From Sipunculus nudus (Eukaryota > Annelida > Sipuncula > Golfingiida > Sipunculidae), in the NCBI GenBank assembly GCA_026874595.1, contig CM049308.1:48553327-48617326 (forward strand): 64,000 bases of DNA, written 5' to 3'. Of the stretch, positions 4,981-62,034 are shown piece by piece (within the stretch, counting starts at the first letter, position 1; every line of letters begins with the position of its first letter). The notes under the pieces were generated by a model that saw nothing but the letters and a program-made list of their open reading frames with translations, searched no databases and was not told where the DNA came from. The position numbers were made by a program, and so were the translations under genes.

Positions 4981-5772
<792 letters not shown>

Positions 5773-8700
5773 CAAGTGACCCAGGGGTCATGACGCTCAG
5801 CTGACCAGGAAGACATTGACAAAGTAATTTTATCATCTGAATGTCAAATTTGAATGAAATACTTTTTTCAAACTTGACCTTTTGTATAAAATCATCCAAT
5901 ATTCATTGGGGTACTATGGAGCTCTGTAGCATGAAGGATATGGGTAACAAACACCTATTTTCAAGGTTTACAAGATGACTTTTCAGGGGTCTCCCAGCAT
6001 GTCAAACTAGATGTGTCGGAACGACACAAATGCCCCCGCCTTGGGCAAATTAGAAACATTTGTAAAATTTGGAAAATTTTTTAAGTTCAGGAGGTGTCAT
6101 ATGGTCAAAAGTAGGTCAACAAGGGCAAAATGCAAACTCGATCTGTAACGGGTCATTATCAAGCAACACACCAAAAATCATGCCAGTATATGCAGGCATT
6201 GTGAAAAAAAGTCCATACATGTGCATTTTCCATAAAAATTTCTGTCTTTCATGAAATTTTCTATGTTTAGGATCTGTAAAACAATCAAAAGTAGGTCAAC
6301 CAGGATGAAACGCAAACTCGATCTGTAACTGTCATTATCTGCCCACACAAAAAAAATCAGGGTGGTATCTGCAGGCATTGAGGAAAAAAAGTCAGTACAT
6401 ATGCATTTGTTATGAACATTTATATTTTTCATGAAACATTCTATGTTCAGGAGCAGTCAAATGGTCAAAAGTAGGTCAACTGAGACAAAACAGGAACTCG
6501 ATCTGTAACTGGTCATTATCTGCCTACACACCAAAAATCAGGCCCATATCTGCAGGCACTGTGAAAAAAAGTCCATACATGTGCACTTTTTTATGAAATT
6601 TTCTATGTGAGAGCACCGCCAAACGGTCAAAAATAGGTCAACTGGGGCAAAACGCAAACTCCATCTGTAACTGGTCATTATCTGCCAACACACCAAAAAT
6701 CAGGCCAATATCTGCAGGCACTGAGAAAAAAAAAACGTACATGTGTATTTGTCATAAAATTTCATATTTTTCATGAATTTTCTATGTTCAGGAGCCGTAA
6801 AAAGGTCAAAAGTAGGTCAACCAGGACGAAATGCAAACTCGATCTGTAACTGGTCTATATCTGCTCATACACCAAAAATCAGGCCAATATCTGCAGGCAT
6901 TGCGAAAAAAAGTCCGTACATGTGTATCTGTCATGAATATTTCTATTTTTCATGAAATTTTCTAAGTGTAGGAGCCGTAAAAAGGTCAAAAGTAGGTCAA
7001 CCAGGACGAAACGCAAACTCGATCTGTAACTAGTTTATATCTGCTCACACATAAAAAATCAGGCCAATATCTGCAGGCATTGCGAAAAAAAGTCCGTACA
7101 TGTGTATCTGTCATGAATATTTCTATTTTTCATGAAATTTTCTAAGTTTAGGAGCCCTAAAACAGTCAAAAGTAGGTCAACCAGGACGAAACGCGAACTT
7201 GATCTGTAACTGGTCTATATCTGCTCACACACCAAAAATCAGGCCAATATCTGCAGGCATTGCGAAAAAAAGTCCGTACATGTGTATCTGTCATGAATAT
7301 TTCTATTTTTCATGAAATTTTCTAAGTTTAGGAGCCGTAAAACGGTCAGAAATAGGTCAAATGGGCTGAAACGCGAACTCGATCTGTAACTGGTCTATAT
7401 CTGCTCACACACCAAAAATCAGGCCAATATCTGCAGGCATTGCGAAAAAAAGTCCGTACATGTGTATCTGTCATGAATATTTCTATTTTTCATGAAATTT
7501 TCTAAGTTTAGGAGCCGTAAAATGGTCAAAAGTAGGTCAACCAGGACGAAACGCGAACTCGATCTGTAACTGGTCTATATCTGCTCACACACCAAAAATC
7601 AGGCCTATATCTGCAGGCATTGCGAAAAAAAGTCCGTACATGTGTATCTGTCATGAATATTTCTATTTTTCATGAAATTTTCTAAGTTTAGGAGCCGTAA
7701 AACGGTCAAAAGTAGGTCAACCGGGACGAAACGTGAACGCGATCTGTAACTGGTCTATATCTGCCCACACACCAAAAATCAGGCCAATATCTGCAGGCAT
7801 TGCGAAAAAAAATCCGTACAACTGTTTCATTTCGGAATGACGGAAGGACGGAATGACGGAATGACAGAATGACGGACATGGGTAAAACTATATGCCCCGG
7901 CCACTTTGTGGCGGGGGCATAAAAATAAAATTCTAGGTCCAGTTATTATGATTTGTGCCCTGTTAACAGATGACCAAATGTTTATTCTGGGGGGTATTTC
8001 AAAGCTGCATAGGATGAAGGATATGGGTAACAGAGATGTAATTTCAGGTGCACAAGGAGACTTTTCAGGGGCCTCCCAGCATATCAAGAAAGGAGATTCT
8101 AGGTCAAGTCATTATAATTTGGGCTCTGTTAACAGATGACCAAATCTTTATTCTCGGAGCCATAGCATGAAGGATATGGGTAACAGAGACCTAATTTCAG
8201 ATTTCCAAAGAGACTTTCCAAAGGCCTCCCTGCATGTCAAGAAAGAAGATTCTAGGTCTAGTCATTATGACCAAATCTTTATTCTGGGGGGTACTTCAGA
8301 GCCCCATAGCTCACAGAATATGGGTAACAGGGACCTTATTTCGGGTTTCCATGTAGACCTTTTATGGGCTTCCCTGGAGGTGAGGACAGAAGATTCTAGG
8401 TCCAGTCATTATGATTTGTGCCCTGTTTACAGATGACCTAATGTTTAAAGATCACAAAAGTAGTTAAAAAAAATCGTAAAAATAAAAAAAATATAGCTGG
8501 CGCCACCAATCTCCAGAAATTGATGAAACACTCCATGATCAATATCCATGCAAAGAATCATGGTGATTAATGCATTAGTTGTTCAGATACTTGAGCTTTT
8601 GTATTAAATTTTGCATTATTCTGGGGGGTACTTCAGAACCCCATAGCTCAAAGAATATAGGTCACAGTGACCTAATTTCAGGTTTACAAGGAGAATTTCC

Positions 8701-11344: not shown

Positions 11345-11671
11345 GTAACAGAGAGGGACTTACCTGTTGGTAATTATACAGTGCTAGGATTGTTAAGACA
11401 GACTTACCTGTTGGTAATTATACAGTGCTAGGCTTGTAGAGAGGGACTTACCTGTTGGTAATTATACAGTGCTAGGTTTGTAGACAGGGACTTACCTGTT
11501 GGTAATTATACAGTGCTAGGCTTGTAAAGAGGGACTTACCTGTTGGTAATTATACAGTGCTAGGCTTGTAAAGACAGACTTATCTGTTGGTAATTATACA
11601 GTGCTAGGCTTGTAGAGAGGGACTTACCTGTTGGTAATTATACAGTGCTAGGCTTGTAGAGAGGGACTTAC
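11345..11671 (-). repeat. 44-bp minisatellite made of an exon 3' end plus its 5' splice site
   Basis: Seven tandem copies, period 44 bp, continue directly from the exon at 11672-11764. On the gene strand each copy holds the last ~30 coding bases (ACAAGCCTAGCACTGTATAA, TTACCAACAG), then a donor GTAAGTC and a short CCTCTC spacer. The steps (ACTTACCTG on the plus strand near 11357, 11401, 11445, 11489, 11533, 11577, 11621 and the true donor near 11666) are regular. The copy near 11577 reads TTATCTG, so its GT is mutated to AT. Copies are otherwise nearly identical, which implies recent expansion or homogenisation. Confidence 0.9.
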
Positions 11672-11764
11672 CTGTTGGTAATTATACAGTGCTAGGCTTG
11701 TTTCAGCAGCATCCTGCGTCTCTATGAATAGTAGTTTATGTTTCTGTACCTGGTCAATGATACC
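11672..11764 (-). CDS. ERCC2: XPD exon, residues ~556-586; both splice junctions abut tandem arrays
   Basis: A 93-bp exon in phase 0-0, encoding [20 protein letters not shown], then [11 protein letters not shown]. It matches human [31 protein letters not shown]. The acceptor is a T-rich tract ending ATCAG, directly next to the 33-bp satellite. The donor is GTAAGT. The last 30 bases of the exon with this donor are repeated seven more times downstream (11345-11671). Reading into the first repeat gives VSPSLQA and then TAG. Confidence 0.95.
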
Positions 11765-11785
11765 CTGATAAAAAAAAACATAAAA

Positions 11786-14700
11786 AGGCTGTACACCCTG
11801 GTATCACATGCAGAAACAAAGCTGTAAATTCTTATATCATATGTAGACAAAAGGCTGCATACCCTAATATCACATGCAGAAACAAAGCTGTAAACACTGA
11901 TATCATATGCAGACACAAAGCTGTACACCCTGATATCACATGCAGAAACAAAGCTGTAAACTCATATATCATATGTAGACAAAAGGCTGTACACCCTGAT
12001 ATCACATGCAGAAACAAAGCTGTAAACTCTGATATCATATGTAGACACAAGGCTGTACACCCTGATATCACATGCAGAAACAAAGCTGTAAACTCTGATA
12101 TCATATGTAGACACAAGGCTGTACACCCTGATATCACATGCAGAAACAAAGCTGTAAACTCTGATATCATATGAAGACACGAGGCTGTACACTCTGATAT
12201 CACATGCAGAAACAAAGCTGTAAACTCTGATATCATATGTAGACACAAGGCTATACACTCTGATATCACATGTAGACACAAGGCTGTACACTCTGATATC
12301 ACATGCAGAAACAAAGCTGTAAACTCTGATATCACATGTAGACACAAGGCTATACACTGTGATATCACATGTAGACACAAGGCTGTACACTCTGATATCG
12401 CATGTAGACACAAGGCTATACACTCTGATATCATATGTAGACACAAGGCGGTACACCCTGATATCACATGCAGAAACAAGGCTGTACACTGTGACTTAAC
12501 ATGTAGACAAAAGGCTGTACACTTTGACTAAACATGTGGACACAAGGCTGTACATCCTGAAATCACATGCAGAAACAAAGCTGTAAACTCTGATATCACA
12601 TAGAGAAACAAAGCTGTAAACTCTGATATCATATGTAGACACAAGGCTGTACATTCTGATATCACATGCAGAGGCAAAAGGTGTAAACTCTGATATCATA
12701 TGTAGACACAAGGCTGTACACCCTGATATCACATGCAGAAACAAAGCTGTAAACTCTGATATCATATGTAGACAAAAGGCTGTACACCCTGATATCACAT
12801 GCAGAAACAAAGCTGTAAACTCTGATATCATATGTAGACACAAGGCTGTACACCCTGATATCACATGCAGAAACAAAGCTGTAAACTCTGATATCATATG
12901 TAGACACAAGGCTGTACACCCTGATATCACATGCAGAAACAAAGCTGTAAACTCTGATATCATATGAAGACACGAGGCTGTACACCCTGATATCACATGC
13001 AGAAACAAAGCTGTAAACTCTGATATCATATGTAGACACAAGGCTATACACTCTGATATCACATGTAGACACAAGGCTGTACACTCTGATATCACATGCA
13101 GAAACAAAGCTGTAAACTCTGATATCACATGAAGACACAAGGCTATACACTGTGATATCACATGTAGACACAAGGCTGTACACTCTGATATCGCATGTAG
13201 ACACAAGGCTATACACTCTGATATCATATGTAGACACAAGGCGGTACACCCTGATATCACATGCAGAAACAAGGCTGTACACTGTGACTTAACATGTGGA
13301 CACAAGGCTGTACATCCTGAAATCAAATGCAGAAACAAAACTGTAAACTCTGATATCACATACAGAAACAAAGCTGTAAACTCTGATATCATATGTAGAC
13401 ACAAGGCTGTACATTCTGATATCACATGCAGAGGCAAAAGGTGTAAACTCTGATATCATATGTAGACACAAGGCTGTACACCCTGATATCACATGCAGAA
13501 ACAAAGCTGTAAACTCTGATATCATATGTTGACACAAGGCTGTACACCCTGATATCACATGCAGAAATAAAGCTGTAAACGCTGATATCATATGTAGACA
13601 CAGGGCTGTACACCCTGATATCACATGCAGAAACAAAGCTGTAAACTCTGATATCATATGTAGACACAAGGCTATACACTCTGATATCACATGTAGACAC
13701 AAGGCTGTACACTCTGATATTACATGCAGAAACAAAGCTGTAAACTCTGATATCACATGTAGACACAAGGCAATACACTGTGATATCACATGTAGACACA
13801 AGGCTGTACACTCTGATATCGCATGTAGACACAAGGCTGTACACTCTGATATCATATGTAGACACAAGGCTGTACACTCTGATATCACATGCAGAAACAA
13901 AGCTGTAAACTCTGATATCATATGTAGACACAAGGCTGTACTCCCTGATATCACATGCAGAAACAAAGCTTTAAACTCTGATATCATATGTAGACACAAG
14001 GCTATACACTTTGATATCACATGTAGACACAAGGCTGTACACTCTGATATTACATGCAGAAACAAAGCTGTAAACTCTGATATCACATGTAGACACAAGG
14101 CTATACACTGTGATATCACATGTAGACACAAGGCTGTACACTCTGATATCATATGTAGACACAAGGCTGTACACCCTGATATCACATGCAGAAACAAGGC
14201 TGTACACTGTGACTTAACATGTAGACAAAAGGCTGTACACTGTGACTAAACATGTGGACACAAGGCTGTACATCCTGAAATCACATGCAGAAACAAAGCT
14301 GTAAACTCTGATATCACATGCAGAAACAAAGCTGTAAACTCTGATTACATATGTAGACACAAGGCTGTGCACTCTGATATCACATGCAGAAACAAAGCTG
14401 TAAACTCTGATATCATATGTAGACACAAGGCTGTACACTCTTATATCACATGCAGAAACAAAGCTGTAAACTCTGATATTATATGTAGACACAAGGCTGT
14501 ACACTCTGATATCACATGCAGAAACAAAGCTGTAAACTCTGATATCATATGTAGACACAAGGCTGTACTCCCTGATATCACATGCAGAAACAAAGCTGTA
14601 AACTCTGATATCATATGAAGACACGAGGCTGTACACCCTGATATCACATGCAGAAACAAAGCTGTAAACTCTGATATCATATGTAGACACAAGGCTATAC

Positions 14701-16695
14701 ACTCTGATATCACATGTAGACACAAGGCTGTACACTCTGATATCACATGCAGAAACAAAGCTGTAAACTCTGATATCACATGAAGACACAAGGCTATACA
14801 CTGTGATATCACATGTAGACACAAGGCTGTACACTCTTATATCGCATGTAGACACAAGGCTATACACTCTGATATCATATGTAGACACAAGGCGGTACAC
14901 CCTGATATCACATGCAGAAACAAGGCTGTACACTGTGACTTAACATGTGGACACAAGGCTGTACATCCTGAAATCAAATGCAGAAACAAAGCTGTAAACT
15001 CTGATATCACATACAGAAACAAAGCTGTAAACTCTGATATCACATGTAGACACAAGGCTGTACATTCTGATATCACATGCAGAGGCAAAAGGTGTAAACT
15101 CTGATATCATATGTAGACACAAGGCTGTACACCCTGATATCACATGCAGAAACAAAGCTGTAAACTCTGATATCATATGTTGACACAAGGCTGTACACCC
15201 TGATATCACATGCAGAAATAAAGCTGTAAACGCTGATATCATATGTAGACACAGGGCTGTACACCCTGATATCACATGCAGAAACAAAGCTGTAAACTCT
15301 GATATCATATGTAGACACAAGGCTATACACTCTGATATCACATGTAGACACAAGGCTGTACACTCTGATATTACATGCAGAAACAAAGCTGTAAACTCTG
15401 ATATCACATGTAGACACAAGGCTATACACTGTGATATCACATGTAGACACAAGGCTGTACACTCTGATATCGCATGTAGACACAAGGCTGTACACTCTGA
15501 TATCATATGTAGACACAAGGCTGTACACTCTGATATCACATGCAGAAACAAAGCTGTAAACTCTGATATCATATGTAGACACAAGGCTGTACTCCCTGAT
15601 ATCACATGCAGAAACAAAGCTGTAAACTCTGATATCATATGTAGACACAAGGCTATACACTTTGATATCACATGTAGACACAAGGCTGTACACTCTGATA
15701 TTACATGCAGAAACAAAGCTGTAAACTCTGATATCACATGTAGACACAAGGCTATACACTGTGATATCACATGTAGACACAAGGCTGTACACTCTGATAT
15801 CATATGTAGACACAAGGCTGTACACCCTGATATCACATGCAGAAACAAGGCTGTACACTGTGACTTAACATGTAGACAAAAGGCTGTACACTGTGACTAA
15901 ACATGTGGACACAAGGCTGTACATCCTGAAATCACATGCAGAAACAAAGCTGTAAACTCTGATATCACATGCAGAAACAAAGCTGTAAACTCTGATTACA
16001 TATGTAGACACAAGGCTGTGCACTCTGATATCACATGCAGAAACAAAGCTGTAAACTCTGATATCATATGTAGACACAAGGCTGTACACTCTTATATCAC
16101 ATGCAGAAACAAAGCTGTAAACTCTGATATTATATGTAGACACAAGGCTGTACACTCTGATATCACATGCAGAAACAAAGCTGTAAACTCTGATATCATA
16201 TGTAGACACAAGGCTGTACTCCCTGATATCACATGCAGAAACAAAGCTGTAAACTCTGATATCATATGTAGACACAAGGCTACATATTCTGATATCACAT
16301 GTAGACAAAAGGCTGTACACCCTGATATCACATATAGAAACAAAGCTGTTAACTCTGATATCACATGTAGACACAAGGCTATACACTCTGATATCACATG
16401 TAGACACAAGGCTGTACACTCTGATATTGCATGTAGACACAAGGCTATACACTCTGATATCATATGTAGATTCAAGGCTGTAAACTCCGATATCACATGT
16501 AGACACAAGGCTGTACGCTGTGACTAAACATGCAGACAATAGAATGTACACTGTGACTAAACATGTAGACACAAGGCTGTACACTGTGACTTAACATTTA
16601 GACAAAAGGCTGTACACTGTGACTAAACATATAGACAGAAGGAAGTACACTGTGACTTAACATGTAGACACTAGGCTGTACACTCTGATATCATT
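11786..16695 (-). repeat. 33/66-bp satellite with 1651-bp higher-order duplication
   Basis: About 4.9 kb of 33-bp monomers, each with the palindrome TGATATCA (an EcoRV site). Two monomer types tend to alternate: one with CATGCAGAAACAAAGCTGTA, one with TATGTAGACACAAGGCTGTA, giving a 66-bp dimer. Irregular monomers (CTGTGACTAAACATG type) mark positions near 12500, 13290, 14215, 14940, 15865 and 16520. The block from roughly 12.66 kb repeats almost exactly 1651 bp further on, up to about 16.25 kb, with a shorter sub-period of about 793-925 bp. Because 33 is a multiple of three, long open frames occur on both strands; they are by-products. The array ends against the T-rich acceptor of the exon at 11764. 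Confidence 0.92.
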
Positions 16696-30769: not shown

Positions 30770-31379
30770 TGTTATTTAAATTAGTTAAGCTTCATTAACA
30801 TACTAACTAACACCTGACGCTGTGCAGAGTGGCAGAAACCCCAGACCAGAAGTCCGTTTAGCTGTCACTCTGCCATAGGACTTGGTCGACACCACTCGTG
30901 TCACGTTACATTGGTCTTTTTTTCATAAGGTGAGAAATAGTTTCTTACAGTTGCCTTGTTAATATCAGTCATTTATTTCCTTTTCTAACTCGCAAAGTCA
31001 TATTTTAGTGTTTCATAAAATAGTACATAATGCCTTCATCCAGTTACTCGCAAAGTCATATTTTAGTGTTTTGTAAAATAGTTCATAATGCATTCAGTGT
31101 TTTGTAAAATAGTACATAATGCCTTCATTGGAAGGTTTCAGGTTTAAACTGTTTTCTGTGTTTCTGTGTATTGCTTATATGTATATATGTAATATGTAAT
31201 ATATAGACTCTGCCATAGGACTTGGTCGACACCACTTGTGTCATGTTACATTGGTCTTTTTTTCATCAGGGTCATTAAATGATGTATCGCCACATGTCCT
31301 TGGTTGTTCGTTTCTGGAAGGTCGGAGAGTGGCGTTGATTCCCACAGAATCGGTCCCTGCATCAGAGCTGGACAATTAC
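30770..31379. repeat. Intron with two copies of a ~55-bp block
   Basis: A block CTGCCATAGGACTTGGTCGA / CACCACTCGTGTCACGTTAC occurs at about 30867-30921 and again at 31207-31261, both followed by ATTGGTCTTTTTTTCAT. Between them are repeats of TTTTGTAAAATAGTACATAA. Unassigned repeat, no gene. Confidence 0.5.
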
Positions 31380-32637: not shown

Positions 32638-35600
32638 AGGTGGAGCCACCAGTTTGCAGGAACTGATGGAACACTCCATAATTAATATTCATGCAAAAAA
32701 TCATTGTGATCAATGCAATAGTTATCAGATACTTGAGCTTTTGTATCAAATCTTTGAATATTCTGGAGGCTACTTACAAGCTCCATAGCTCAGAGAATAT
32801 TGGTAACAGGGACCTAATTTTAGGTTTCCAAGGAGATGTTTCTAATACCTGTCAGGATGTCAAGTTTAAAGATTCCAGATCTAGCAGTTAGGATTTGTGC
32901 CCTGTTGACAGATGAAGGCTTCTTTGAAAGTATCAAAAATAGAGTAAAGATTTGTAAAAATTAGAAAAAGTACAGGTGGGGCCACCAGTTTGCAGGAACT
33001 CATGGAACACTCCATGATCAATATTCATGCAAAAAACATGGTGGTAGTTATTCAGGTACTGAACTTTTTGTATTAAATTTCTGATTATTCTGGGGGGTAA
33101 TTACAAGACCCATAGCTCGGAGAATATGGGTAACAGAGACCAAATTTCAGGTTTCCAAAGAGATTTTAAGGACCTCCCTGGATATCAAGTTAGAAGATTC
33201 CAGGTCCAACAGTTACAATTTGTGCCCTGTTACGGGACGGCCAGACGGCCAGAGAGAAGGCCAGATGGACGCCTGACAAAGAGTGATTGCTATGGCTCAG
33301 AGGAGACTCGGTCAGCTGAGCTAAAAATCGTAAAAAAATCGAAAAATTACAGTTTGCGCCACCAGTCTGCAGGAATTGATGAAACACTCCATGATCAATA
33401 TGCATGCAAAGAATGATGGTGATCAATGCATTAGTTGTTCAGATAATTGAGCTTTTGTATTTAAATATGCATTATAAGCGGGGTTACTTAGGAGCACCAT
33501 AGCTCTTAGGATATGAGTAACAGAGACCAAATACAGGTTTCCATGGAGACTTTTCATGGGCCTTCCAGGATGTCAAGCTGAAAGATTCTAGGTCCAGTGA
33601 TTATGATTTGTGCCCTGTTAACATATGAACACATCCTTAAAGGTCTGAAAACAGAGAAAAAAATCGTAAAAAATTAAAAAAAAATACAGGTGACGCCAAC
33701 AGTCTGCAGAAACTGATGAAACATTCCATGACCAATATCCATGCAAAGAATCATTGTGATCAATGCATGAGTTGTTCAGATACTTGAGCTTTTGTATCAA
33801 ATTTTCCATTATTCTGGGGGGTACTTTGAAGCCCCATAGCTCAGACTCAGAGGTTTTGGGTAACAGAGACCTAATTTTATGTTTCCGTGGAGACTTTTTA
33901 TGGGCCTCACTGCATTTGAAGATAGAAGATTCTAGGTCCAGTCATTATGATTTGTGCCCTGTTAACAGATGGAAGCACCCACTAAGGTCTCAAAAATAGA
34001 GAAAAAAATTGAAACTAGATGTGTCGGAAGGACACGAATGCCCCCGCCTGGAGCAAATTAGAAACATTTGTTAAATTTTGTAAAATTTTTTAAGTACAGG
34101 AAGTGTTGTATTGTCAAAAGTAGGTCAACAAGGGCAAAATGCAAACTCGATCTGTAAAGGGTCATTATCAAGCAACACACAAAAAATCAGGCCAGTATCT
34201 GCAGGCATTGTGAAAAAAAGTCCATATATGTGCATTTTTCATGAAAATTTCTGTCTTTCATGAAATTTTCTATGTTCAGGATCTGTCATATGGTGAAAAA
34301 TAGGATAACTGGGACGAAACGCGAACTCGATCTGTAAGTGGTCATTTTGCGCCCACAGACCAAACATTAGGCCAGTATCTGTAAGCATTGCATTGCGAAA
34401 CTAGAATATTAGCAAAAGTTGATAATCATTTATAAATTTAAATTGGAGAGGTATATACCATGTTTCATAACAATCCATCAAATGCTTCCTGAGAACTAAG
34501 CTCCTAAGTTTTTTTCTATACTAAGCTCTGTGACCTTGAAAAGTAGGTCAAGATCACCCATCTTTGAACTTGACCAAGATTTTGTAAATATAATGCAATA
34601 GCACTGAAGAAATGAAGTTCCTGTGTTGAATACCTTTGGAGATATCCTGCACAAAAGGCCAAAATTGAAAAAATCTGATAAAATTTCATTAAAAAATCAG
34701 AAATTGCAGGTGGCGCCACAAAAATTGTGCAGCACATACAGACCATCAGTCCCAATGATCATAGTAAGTTTTGTGAAAATCCACACAATGGTTCCTGAGA
34801 TATACACTTCTGAGTGTTTTTCTATAATCAGCTCTAAAATGTAGAAAAATGGGTCAAGGTCACCCATCTTCGAACTTGACCGAGATTTTATCGATATACA
34901 TCTTCACTGATGAAATAAAATTCCAACGGTGAATCCTTTTAGAGATATCCCGCTCACAAGGTAAAAGTTAACAGACGCGGAACGGACGGACAGACACCGG
35001 ACAGACAGATGGACAGACGGACAGCTTGGGTGACGACAATTGCCCATCAGCCTATGAGCTGAGGGCTAAAAATGGCTGTACATGTGTATTTGTCATGAAA
35101 ATTTCTATTTTTCATGAATTTTTCTAAGTTTAGGAGCCGTAAAACGGTCAAAAGTAGGTCAACCGGGACAAAACGCGAACTCGATCTGTAACTGGTCATT
35201 ATCTGCCCACACACCAAAAATCAGGCCAATATCTGCAGGCATTGCGAAAAAAAGTCCGTACATGTGTATTTGTCATGAAAATTTCTATTTTTCATGAAAT
35301 TTTCTAAGTTTAGGAGCCGTTAAACGGTCAAAAGTAGGTCAACTGGGACAAAACGCAAACTCGATCTGTAACTGGTCATTTTCTGCCCACACACCAAAAA
35401 TCAGGCCAATATCTGCAGGCATTGCGAAAAAAAGTCCGTACAACTGTTTGATTTCGGAATGACGGAATGACGGAATGACGGACATGGGTAAAACTATATG
35501 CCCCGGCCACTTTGTGGCGGGGGCATAATAAAAATACAAGTGGCACCACCAATCTGCAGAAACTGATGAAACACTACATGATCAATATCCATGCAAAGAA

Positions 35601-37299: not shown

Positions 37300-37645
37300 G
37301 AAATCCATTTTCTGTACACATGGAAATGTACTGTCATCATGTTTTCTGTACTTAGATTAACTGTCATCATGTTCTGTACATACAGGTGTACTGTCATCAT
37401 GTTCTGTATATGCAGTTGTACTGTCATCATGTTCTGTATATGCAGATGTACTGTCATCATGTTCTGTACATGTAGGTGTTCTTCCATCATGTTCTGTATA
37501 TGCAAATGTACTGTCATCATGTTCTGTACATGTAGGTGTACTTCCATCATGTTCTGTTTATGTAGTTGTCCTGTCATCATGTTCTGTATAAGTAGTTGTA
37601 CTGTCATCATGTTCTGTATATGTAGTTGTACTGTCATCATGTTAA
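37300..37645 (-). repeat. 30-bp minisatellite beside the donor of the 37.7-kb exon
   Basis: About eleven units of 30 bp, on the gene strand CATGATGACAGTACAACTAC followed by ATATACAGAA. They start some 14 bases below the exon donor and fill most of the 437-bp intron. The unit start GATGACAGTACAAC resembles the exon end plus donor, GATGACCCAG|GTACCAG. This suggests, less certainly than for the other two arrays, that the junction was the founder. Open frames on both strands exist only because 30 is a multiple of three. Confidence 0.85.
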
Positions 37646-47177: not shown

Positions 47178-47296
47178 CTTTAGCATATGTGCTGACCAAG
47201 GTGGCAAAATTGGAAATAAGAGTTAGCGGAGAGAAGTCTTGGATGTCTGTGAGCTCTAACGTTCTGAGGAGGGACCGCAGCCGTTCTGCGCAGAAC
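47178..47296 (-). CDS. ERCC2: XPD exon, residues ~373-413, end of Arch domain
   Basis: A 119-bp exon in phase 2-1. It encodes [20 protein letters not shown], then [19 protein letters not shown]. It is nearly identical to human [15 protein letters not shown]...[20 protein letters not shown]. The acceptor is CATTTCTCAG and the donor is GTTGGT. The intron on its 5' side is almost entirely the minisatellite seeded by the previous exon; only about 50 bases of ordinary intron precede this acceptor. Confidence 0.96.
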
Positions 47297-47349
47297 CTGA
47301 GAAATGATATATCATAACATATTATAACATATCACTGACATATAAGAGA

Positions 47350-48479
47350 TTTTCTACTATTATGCACTTTTTCTCCAGTCACCTGACAGGTTTCGACTGA
47401 TGCACACTTTTGATCTTCACTCACATGTCAGATTTTCTACAGATGCACACATTTTATTCAATTACCTGACAGGTTTTCTGCTGATACATAATTTTTCTCC
47501 ATTATACTAACAGGTTTCCTATTGATGCACACTTTTGATCTCCATTCACCTGACAGGTTTTCTACTGATGCACACTTTTGATCTCCATTCACCTGACAGG
47601 TTTTCTTTTGATGCACACTTTTGATCTCAATTCACCTGACAGGTTTTCTTTTGATGCACACTTTTGATCTCCATTCACCTGTCAGGTTTTCTTTTGATGC
47701 ACACTTACGATCTCCATTCACCTGACAGATTTTCTTTTGATGCACACTTTTGATCTCCATTCACCTGACATGTTTTCTTTTGATGCACACTTACGATCTC
47801 CATTCACCTGACAGATTTTCTATTGATGCACACTTATGATCTCCATTCACCTGTCAGGTTTTCTTTTGATGCATACTTATGATCTCCATTCACCTGACAG
47901 GTTTTCTTTTGATGCACACTTATGATCTCCATTCACCTGACAGGTTTCCTTTTGATGCACACTTATGATCTCCATTCACCTGACAGGTTTTCTACTGATG
48001 TACACTTTTGATCTCCATTCACCTGACAGGTTTTCTACTGATGTACACTTTTGATCTCCATTCACCTGAAAGGTTTTCTATAATTGCACACTTTTTCTCT
48101 AGTCACCTGAAAAGGTGACTATTAATGCACACTTTTAATTTCTATTCACCTCATAAGTTTTCTACTGATGCACACTTTTTCTCCATTCACCTGACATGTT
48201 TTCTGCTGATACATATTTTTTCTCCAAACACCTGACAGGTTTTCTACTGATACATAATTTTTCTCCAATCACCTGACAGGTTTTCTACTAATACATAATT
48301 TTTCTCCAATCACCTGACAGGTTTTCTACTGATACATAATTTTTCTCCAACCACCTGACAGGTTTTCAACTGATACATAATTTTCCTCCAATAACCTGAC
48401 AGGTTTTCTACTGATACATCATTTTTCTCCAATCACCTGACAGGTTTTCTATCAATACACATTTTTTCTCTCAACTCAC
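47350..48479 (-). repeat. 41-43-bp minisatellite made of an exon 3' end plus its 5' splice site
   Basis: About 26 tandem units fill the intron from the donor of the exon at 48480 nearly to the next acceptor. On the gene strand a unit reads GATAGAAAACCTGTCAGGTG, then ATTGGAGAAAAA or AATGGAGATCAAAAG and TGTGCATCA. The true junction reads GAAAGAAAACCTCTCAGGTG, then AGTTGAGAG, so the unit is a mutated copy of exon end plus donor. Units near the exon are 41 bp (TCCAATCACCTGACAGG on plus). Those farther away are 43 bp and more uniform (GATCTCCATTCACCTGACAG). Confidence 0.9.
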
Positions 48480-48648
48480 CTGAGAGGTTTTCTTTCAATG
48501 CAAACTTTTTGAGAACAGTCTTTCAGAAAAGATGGTGGACTTTCCTGTACAACATGTTGAATTCGAAGCCTTGTTTTAAGGTACTCAACGAAGCGTTTCA
48601 TGAAGGCAACAAAGTGCTCAGCATTGCGAATATTCCCTGGAACAGCCT
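48480..48648 (-). CDS. ERCC2: XPD exon, residues ~317-373, Arch domain; its 3' end seeds a minisatellite
   Basis: A 169-bp exon in phase 1-2, running from [12 protein letters not shown] through [16 protein letters not shown] to VCIERKPL and a split Arg. It matches human ...[14 protein letters not shown]...RVCIQRKPLR. The acceptor is TATTTGAGCAG and the donor is GTGAGT, the best donor of the local series. Starting at this donor the intron is a long tandem array whose units repeat the last ~25 bases of the exon plus the start of the intron (see 47350-48479). Use of any repeat copy as donor would read AGG TGA, an immediate stop. Confidence 0.95.
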
Positions 48649-48781
48649 CTGCTCAAATACAACAAAGTCTCTCATAATGATGATATATTTAATTCCTTAT
48701 GAGTAGAGATACTCTGATAACTGGGAGTATGACCCATTTTACTTGTAAATGAGGTATCCTTGAATACTTGTTTTTAAAACA
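48649..48781. other. Intron, acceptor side of the 48.5-kb exon
   Basis: Short plain intron between the exon and the next family A element. Nothing else recognised. Confidence 0.4.
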
Positions 48782-61980: not shown

Positions 61981-62034
61981 CAAGTCATAGACCCCCGGGG
62001 GCAGCGTGGTCTCTCTTCCATGGGCTTCAAATCC
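61981..62034 (-). CDS. ERCC2: XPD exon, residues ~160-177
   Basis: A 54-bp exon in phase 0-0, encoding GFEAHGRETTLPPGVYDL. It matches the XPD segment between the third and fourth Fe-S cysteines (human ...AHGREVPLPAGIYNL). The acceptor is TTTTGTGTTTCAG and the donor is GTATGT. This is the first exon of the gene inside the window; the preceding exons, with Walker A and three Fe-S cysteines, must lie to the right of 64000. A longer minus-strand open frame covers this exon, but its flanks are intron read-through. Confidence 0.92.

Follow-up and report, generated by a model that had tools for sequence, protein, structure and literature searches.

How an intron of a conserved gene came to consist almost entirely of degenerate copies of the splice junction at which it begins is the question raised by this locus, together with whether such copying is confined to one gene or recurs in the genome. 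The window, meaning the whole 64,000-nt stretch of DNA that was analysed, lies on contig C3 of a 1.43 Gb genome of 153 contigs. Exons of XPD/ERCC2 were located by tblastn with a human XPD protein as the query; they extend across most of the window on the minus strand, from approximately human residue 157 (near 62034) to residue 610 (near 5496), and more XPD exons lie outside it, upstream in L138 and downstream in L139. The array in the focal intron is very probably a minisatellite of the mirage type, produced by tandem duplication across a splice junction and then by local amplification, and the same process appears to have acted at donors and acceptors across the genome.

The focal intron and the origin of its array

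The features of the focal locus are as follows.

48480-48649, minus strand: XPD exon, source of the repeat; human residues 317-373, beginning EAVPGNIR (tblastn, and phmmer to PDB XPD chains)
47178-47296, minus strand: next XPD exon; residues 373-414, ending STYAKG (tblastn and phmmer)
47297-48479, minus strand: focal intron, 1,183 bp, 94% array
48478-48479, minus strand: authentic GT donor (CAG/GTGAGT)
48468-48510, minus strand: authentic junction unit (copy 0), 31 exon nt plus 12 intron nt
47365-48509, minus strand: 41-43 bp minisatellite, 27 copies besides the junction copy (TRF period 43, 27.2 copies, score 1273)

When joined, the two exons (48649-48480 and 47296-47178) match PDB XPD chains without a gap (phmmer, best E 7e-47; a human chain is apparently among them), and a sequence check found the exon-exon join across the intron to be open and conserved. 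By these matches the 1,183-bp gap is an intron of the DNA-repair helicase gene XPD/ERCC2. The array occupies 1,115 of its 1,183 bp, in agreement with the 1.13 of 1.18 kb given in the preliminary description, and its first unit extends about 30 nt into the exon. A register scan recovered the junction copy and 27 further registers, where about 26 units had been proposed to come from the 5' splice junction of this exon; this derivation is borne out, as every one of the 27 further copies aligns to the 43-nt junction unit above all 200 of its single-base shuffles (29-36 identities, 66-84%, alignment scores of 12-29). The exon end at this junction encodes VCIERKPLR, which is conserved in XPD among the PDB chains shown by phmmer. 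Since the exon part of the unit is conserved in these chains, the exon sequence is older than the array, and the copying ran from exon to intron.

The 43-nt junction seed opens with AAAAA, and a second AAAAA stands just after its end. It is proposed that this 43-bp stretch, the 3' end of the XPD exon plus the first 12 intron nt, was duplicated in tandem, perhaps through slippage between the two short A tracts that bound it, a route suggested by the sequence. Amplification would have followed in local blocks by slippage or unequal exchange; the likeness of neighbouring units is observed, and exchange is a likely means of producing it. The exon copy would be kept by selection on the protein, and the intron copies would drift and homogenise. 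Splicing presumably takes place at the exon-proximal donor, as under exon definition, leaving the inner copies inert and tolerated.

The internal order of the units bears on how the array grew. Unit spacings are, in order, 43, then 41 seven times, 43, 41, 43 thirteen times, 41, 41, 42 and 41. The shift from 41 to 43 bp with distance from the exon that had been described is not upheld, as spacing has no steady trend with distance (Spearman 0.26, P 0.20) and units of 41 bp reappear at the end distal to the exon. Stepwise expansion, which had been read from that shift, fares no better: how well a unit matches the junction is unrelated to its distance from the exon (rho -0.09, P 0.67), and neighbouring units are the most alike, being closer than random pairs (0.154 vs 0.209; 0 of 2000 permutations). 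To judge from the unit sequences, this neighbour likeness fits local block duplication, and outward stepwise growth does not fit.

That 94% of the intron is array could also be expected had the intron arisen when an exon segment containing AGGT was duplicated in tandem (a Rogers-type gain), the array then being the scar of its birth; intron gain through tandem duplication is on record (PMC4974935, PMC3087553). Such a birth is nevertheless very unlikely here, because no extra residues appear when the two joined exons are aligned to XPD chains. In human ERCC2 this codon position (c.1118/1119) is presumably also interrupted by an intron, and the focal intron would then be ancient; a literature search for an ERCC2 c.1119 intron found nothing.

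Other arrays in XPD and the strength of their donors

Four further features of the window are needed here.

11352-11701, minus strand: second proven exon-derived XPD array, 44 bp x8, made of the exon end plus GTAAGT (32/32 identical; 30 exon nt + GT)
11672-11764, minus strand: XPD exon from which the 44-bp array arose; donor at 11672 (tblastn)
11785-16693, minus strand: 33 bp x148.7 array, about 4.9 kb, just short of the acceptor of exon 11672-11764 (TRF)
37326-37643, minus strand: 30-bp array, x10.6, beginning immediately downstream of a different XPD exon's donor (TRF)

The 44-bp array, in the same gene, agrees with the earlier description of the focal array as a second exon-edge minisatellite. 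A third proven exon-derived XPD array, 37 bp x10.8, comes from an acceptor in L139, where the start of exon HHYGRCVIMF recurs beside the exon and again in the 37-bp array, which lies approximately 2.5 kb upstream. In all, counting the focal one, 3 of the 34 XPD edges tested have arrays derived from their own exon. Two candidates were rejected. The 33-bp array adjoins an exon and its consensus contains an acceptor-like ATATCAG, but this consensus matched XPD junctions no better than shuffles did (97/200), and it is not accepted as an acceptor mirage. The first match of the 30-bp array to exon sequence proved to be the array's own first unit, and a retest gave no exon match; this array may be a decayed junction array. 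As both abut exons without provable exon sequence, a flush position is not proof of exon origin. As a separate observation, a 180-bp repeat occurs in the window at 6074-7820 and 35078-35442, each time followed by CGGAATGA short repeats, and arrays of 180-bp period are also present in L025 and L139.

Introners carry a splice site by definition, and the units of the focal array bear a donor-like site; the repeat might thus be conceived as a mobile element or introner-like sequence inserted here together with its splice site. A two-unit probe of the focal array, however, gave 15 matches genome-wide, all at the focal locus, and probes for the 44-bp (two units) and 33-bp arrays matched only their own loci (very common words being skipped in these searches). 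Within that limit, no dispersal in many introns is seen, and the possibility, raised at the outset, that the unit lies closer to some other genomic repeat than to this exon junction found no match in its favour. In the other proven arrays the units each differ, and each is made of its own exon. From these comparisons the insertion of an element is largely refuted, and is extremely unlikely as the source of the array.

Each copy was scored as a splice site by U1 duplex energy, as had been recommended. At the focal array, the true donor CAG/GTGAGT scores -12.2 and the strongest copy no better than -8.4, the copies' donors being mostly GTGAAT or GTGATT (18 of 27). The preliminary description was correct that the copies here are weaker than the GTGAGT donor, yet this does not extend to other arrays: in the 44-bp array 7 of the 8 donors, the true one among them, are CAGGTAAGT (-12.1) and the eighth is CAGATAAGT, and in L104 8 of the 10 donors, again including the true one, are CAGGTAAGT. 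On these predicted strengths, donor weakening holds at the focal array and is not a general rule. Because the copies of the 44-bp array mostly match the strength of the true donor, position alone must decide donor choice there, and it is likely the exon-proximal donor that is used, as exon definition predicts.

Use of an inner copy would introduce a stop. An immediate AGG TGA had been foreseen for every copy, and use of any of the 27 is indeed predicted to place a stop right after R373; it is not specific to the copies, however, since the authentic donor's own GTGA supplies TGA as the first intron codon. Read in this frame, the stop belongs to the first codon of the intron. Early stops are likewise predicted for use of any of the 7 copies in the 44-bp array. 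Unit length is divisible by 3 in 5 of the 17 listed arrays, some of which are unproven; unit lengths thus give no sign of selection on reading frame, as would be expected if the copies are untranslated.

These two properties, predicted stops at all inner focal copies and donors weaker than the true one, could be taken as marks of a selected decoy array that regulates XPD splicing or output. As most of the donors copied in the 44-bp array and in L104 are not weakened, and as exon-edge copies are spread over unrelated genes, selection for decoys is a most improbable account, and duplication across the junction with local amplification is preferred.

Exon-edge copies in other genes

The frequency of such copies was estimated in a survey of 215 exons (430 edges) with 230-330 nt of flank, taken from Pfam matches to TCP-1, myosin, adaptin and kinesin. 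A first set of 132 exons comprised 32 of 33 matches (C11:3985009 being dropped), 70 of 75 and 30 of 31, with five alternative myosin exons and a 520-aa frame on C6 also dropped from it; for kinesin, 85 of 126 matches were chosen roughly by rank, one long stop-ridden match was dropped, and 83 lay within the 80 regions fetched. The bacterial loci L001-L010 and L015 were left out, as was L011. The outer 40 nt of each exon was aligned to its own flanking intron, with a pass level of 1/400.

An exon-edge copy in the adjoining intron was found at 12 of the 430 edges, 11 of them scoring at least 16, compared with 0 of 394 exon-interior controls and 1 of 430 swapped-intron controls (Fisher 4e-4 and 2e-3). 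Survey edges are the ends of profile matches and may include intron bases (about 33 in L043). Among the 12 passes, L162 is doubtful, as its profile match takes in intron and exon-only sequence gave 275/1000, and L044 (score 14) stood outside the retest that follows. When splice sites were placed manually and the test was confined to exon sequence, 9 of 17 candidates passed at 1/1000 or better: L043, L056, L089, L115, L131, L141, L166, L206 (whose exon start is the analyst's own reading) and L208. L056 is a single copy and L115 holds about 1.9 copies, and near-identical copies occur in L089 (39/39 aligned) and L208 (37/38 aligned). The other 8 missed 1/1000, with L104 at 5/1000 and L158 at 7/1000 being borderline and the remaining six falling at 19-659/1000 (L032, L049 and L081, each with 9-11 matching exon nt, and L137, L162 and L199). 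From these alignments, exon-edge copies are estimated at roughly 2-3% of sampled edges (12/430, 95% interval 1.5-4.8%; strictly, 9/430).

Outside the 430-edge tests, L012-L014 and L016-L030 were scanned with TRF. To be set against the estimate, by TRF alone 17 further PF00118 host exons (L013, L014, L016-L030) are without an array at the matched exon edge, the array in L017 belonging to a neighbouring exon in L032. L012 (C3:73093755 region) holds, at 2395-2780, an 84-bp x4.7 repeat, which overlaps a frame resembling HSP60/TCP-1 and interrupted by one stop.

Junction arrays occur at donors (48480, 11672, L089, L115, L208) and at acceptors (L139, L043, L131, L141, L166, L206). Their identity to the source junction, and with it their apparent age, ranges from complete or nearly so (32/32 in the 44-bp array, L089, L208) to approximately 75% at the focal array, indicating that the process has recurred. 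Single unarrayed copies of a donor junction were also seen in the adjacent intron in L081 (near 1832) and L056 (near 462). By their sequence these are possible first steps of a mirage; only L056 passes the exon-only test.

Several other observations were made in the genome. The myosin gene at C2:44848559-44854198 has about four tandem exons for one stretch (profile positions ~109/122-153), which are likely mutually exclusive, and squid and vertebrate PDB chains match one myosin exon equally well. Nine full-length bacterial-type GroEL matches of equal score and nine bacterial-type COX1 matches, also of equal score, lie among contigs C60-C99, of up to 3.3 Mb, and one short COX1 fragment lies on C5; the GroEL and COX1 contigs are probably several copies of one bacterial genome in the assembly, from a symbiont or contaminant. 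At least 141 C1q matches are present (203 candidates, 150 scored), and many of their frames could accommodate two domains, a pattern typical of bivalves. Searches for PF00777 (sialyltransferase), GFP and PF14830 (mollusc haemocyanin), run without a positive control, gave no genome match. The C1q abundance and the missing PF00777 and GFP matches point, indirectly, to a bivalve as the probable host and make a lancelet unlikely; the myosin exon does not discriminate.

Whether junctions are preferred sites is a further question. The genome may make minisatellites everywhere, with those overlapping junctions being the ones that get noticed; the absence of any junction-specific process has somewhat less than an even chance of being correct, and is compatible with the mirage reading of the focal array. 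It draws on repeat coverage, which has no junction peak (repeated 30-mers make up about 2% at the exon edge and 3.5-4% deeper in the flank), and on an automated edge-bin test (10 vs 16, P 0.09). It is opposed by the clustering of array ends near edges, with 22 of the 28 lying between -90 and +60 nt (P 0.010), and by straddling arrays, 11-14 of 28-29, at 2.3-6.5-fold the rate under uniform seeding (P 0.03 to 3e-6), where the classification was made by eye and P depends on the assumed unit size and on the arrays admitted. Within XPD, 3 of 9 hand-chosen arrays straddle (P 6e-4), the small arrays of the window, those at 31065 and 31754 among them, being left uncounted. The evidence is mixed and does no more than hint at a mutational preference for junctions. 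A wider proposal, that minisatellite birth in this genome has its mutational hot spots at splice junctions, probably coupled to transcription or splicing, and that mirages are a major continuing route of intron lengthening and a source of spare splice sites, is regarded as rather unlikely; under it, mirages would be tolerated wherever exon definition operates, and few would be expected in animals that define their short introns instead.

Relation to known mirages

Mirages are known from lancelets (amphioxus), where they have been described in Adh3 and the globins BflGb6 and BflGb9 (PMC3087553) and in TnC and PGBD5 (PMC3902484). The arrays here have in common with them minisatellite-like tandem duplications that span exon-intron boundaries at 5' and 3' ends (PMC3087553), an authentic junction at the array end, local homogenisation of units, and units of tens to about 160 bp; on sequence grounds, they meet the structural definition of a mirage. 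The lancelet reports concern single genes, whereas another animal is probably involved here, to judge from the marker families, with 27 focal copies and a frequency of about 2-3% of sampled edges. Splicing of the lancelet genes was found to be normal by RT-PCR, whereas the present arrays are known from sequence alone; length polymorphism or somatic instability is taken as a further mark of mirages, and one assembly is considered here. What is new is the host animal and the measured commonness, the mirage kind being already known.

Related systems differ in instructive ways. Human IFI6 (6-16) carries a minisatellite with a 12-bp unit, the copies serving as splice donors, and it shares with the present arrays tandem donor-site copies at an exon-intron boundary; the unit here is mostly exon sequence, unlike the 12-bp one, and its copies are putative donors. 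In human segmental duplications, internal tandem repeats alter exon-intron structure, and the minisatellite variation found at exon-intron boundaries, among other places, is a shared feature; half of these repeats, however, lie in coding sequence, they belong to recent primate paralogues, and the text available describes no intron filled by its own junction (PMC2812944). Intron gain by tandem genomic duplication has the same source of splice-site-bearing sequence, but it makes a new intron, whereas here an apparently pre-existing one grew (PMC4974935). Intronic repeats are reported in earthworm metallothionein and seabream myostatin, with no junction-derived units named in the available text. 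A literature search found no report of genome-scale exon-copy arrays, which is weak evidence given that most subscription journals lay outside it, and nothing on minisatellites at intron-exon boundaries in bivalves.

Exon-edge copies at 12 of 430 sampled edges, with 9 candidates strictly proven, in what is apparently a mollusc would make mirages a wider feature of animal genomes. The arrays are in addition natural experiments, both in the choice that the spliceosome makes among eight nearly equal sites and in the growth of introns.
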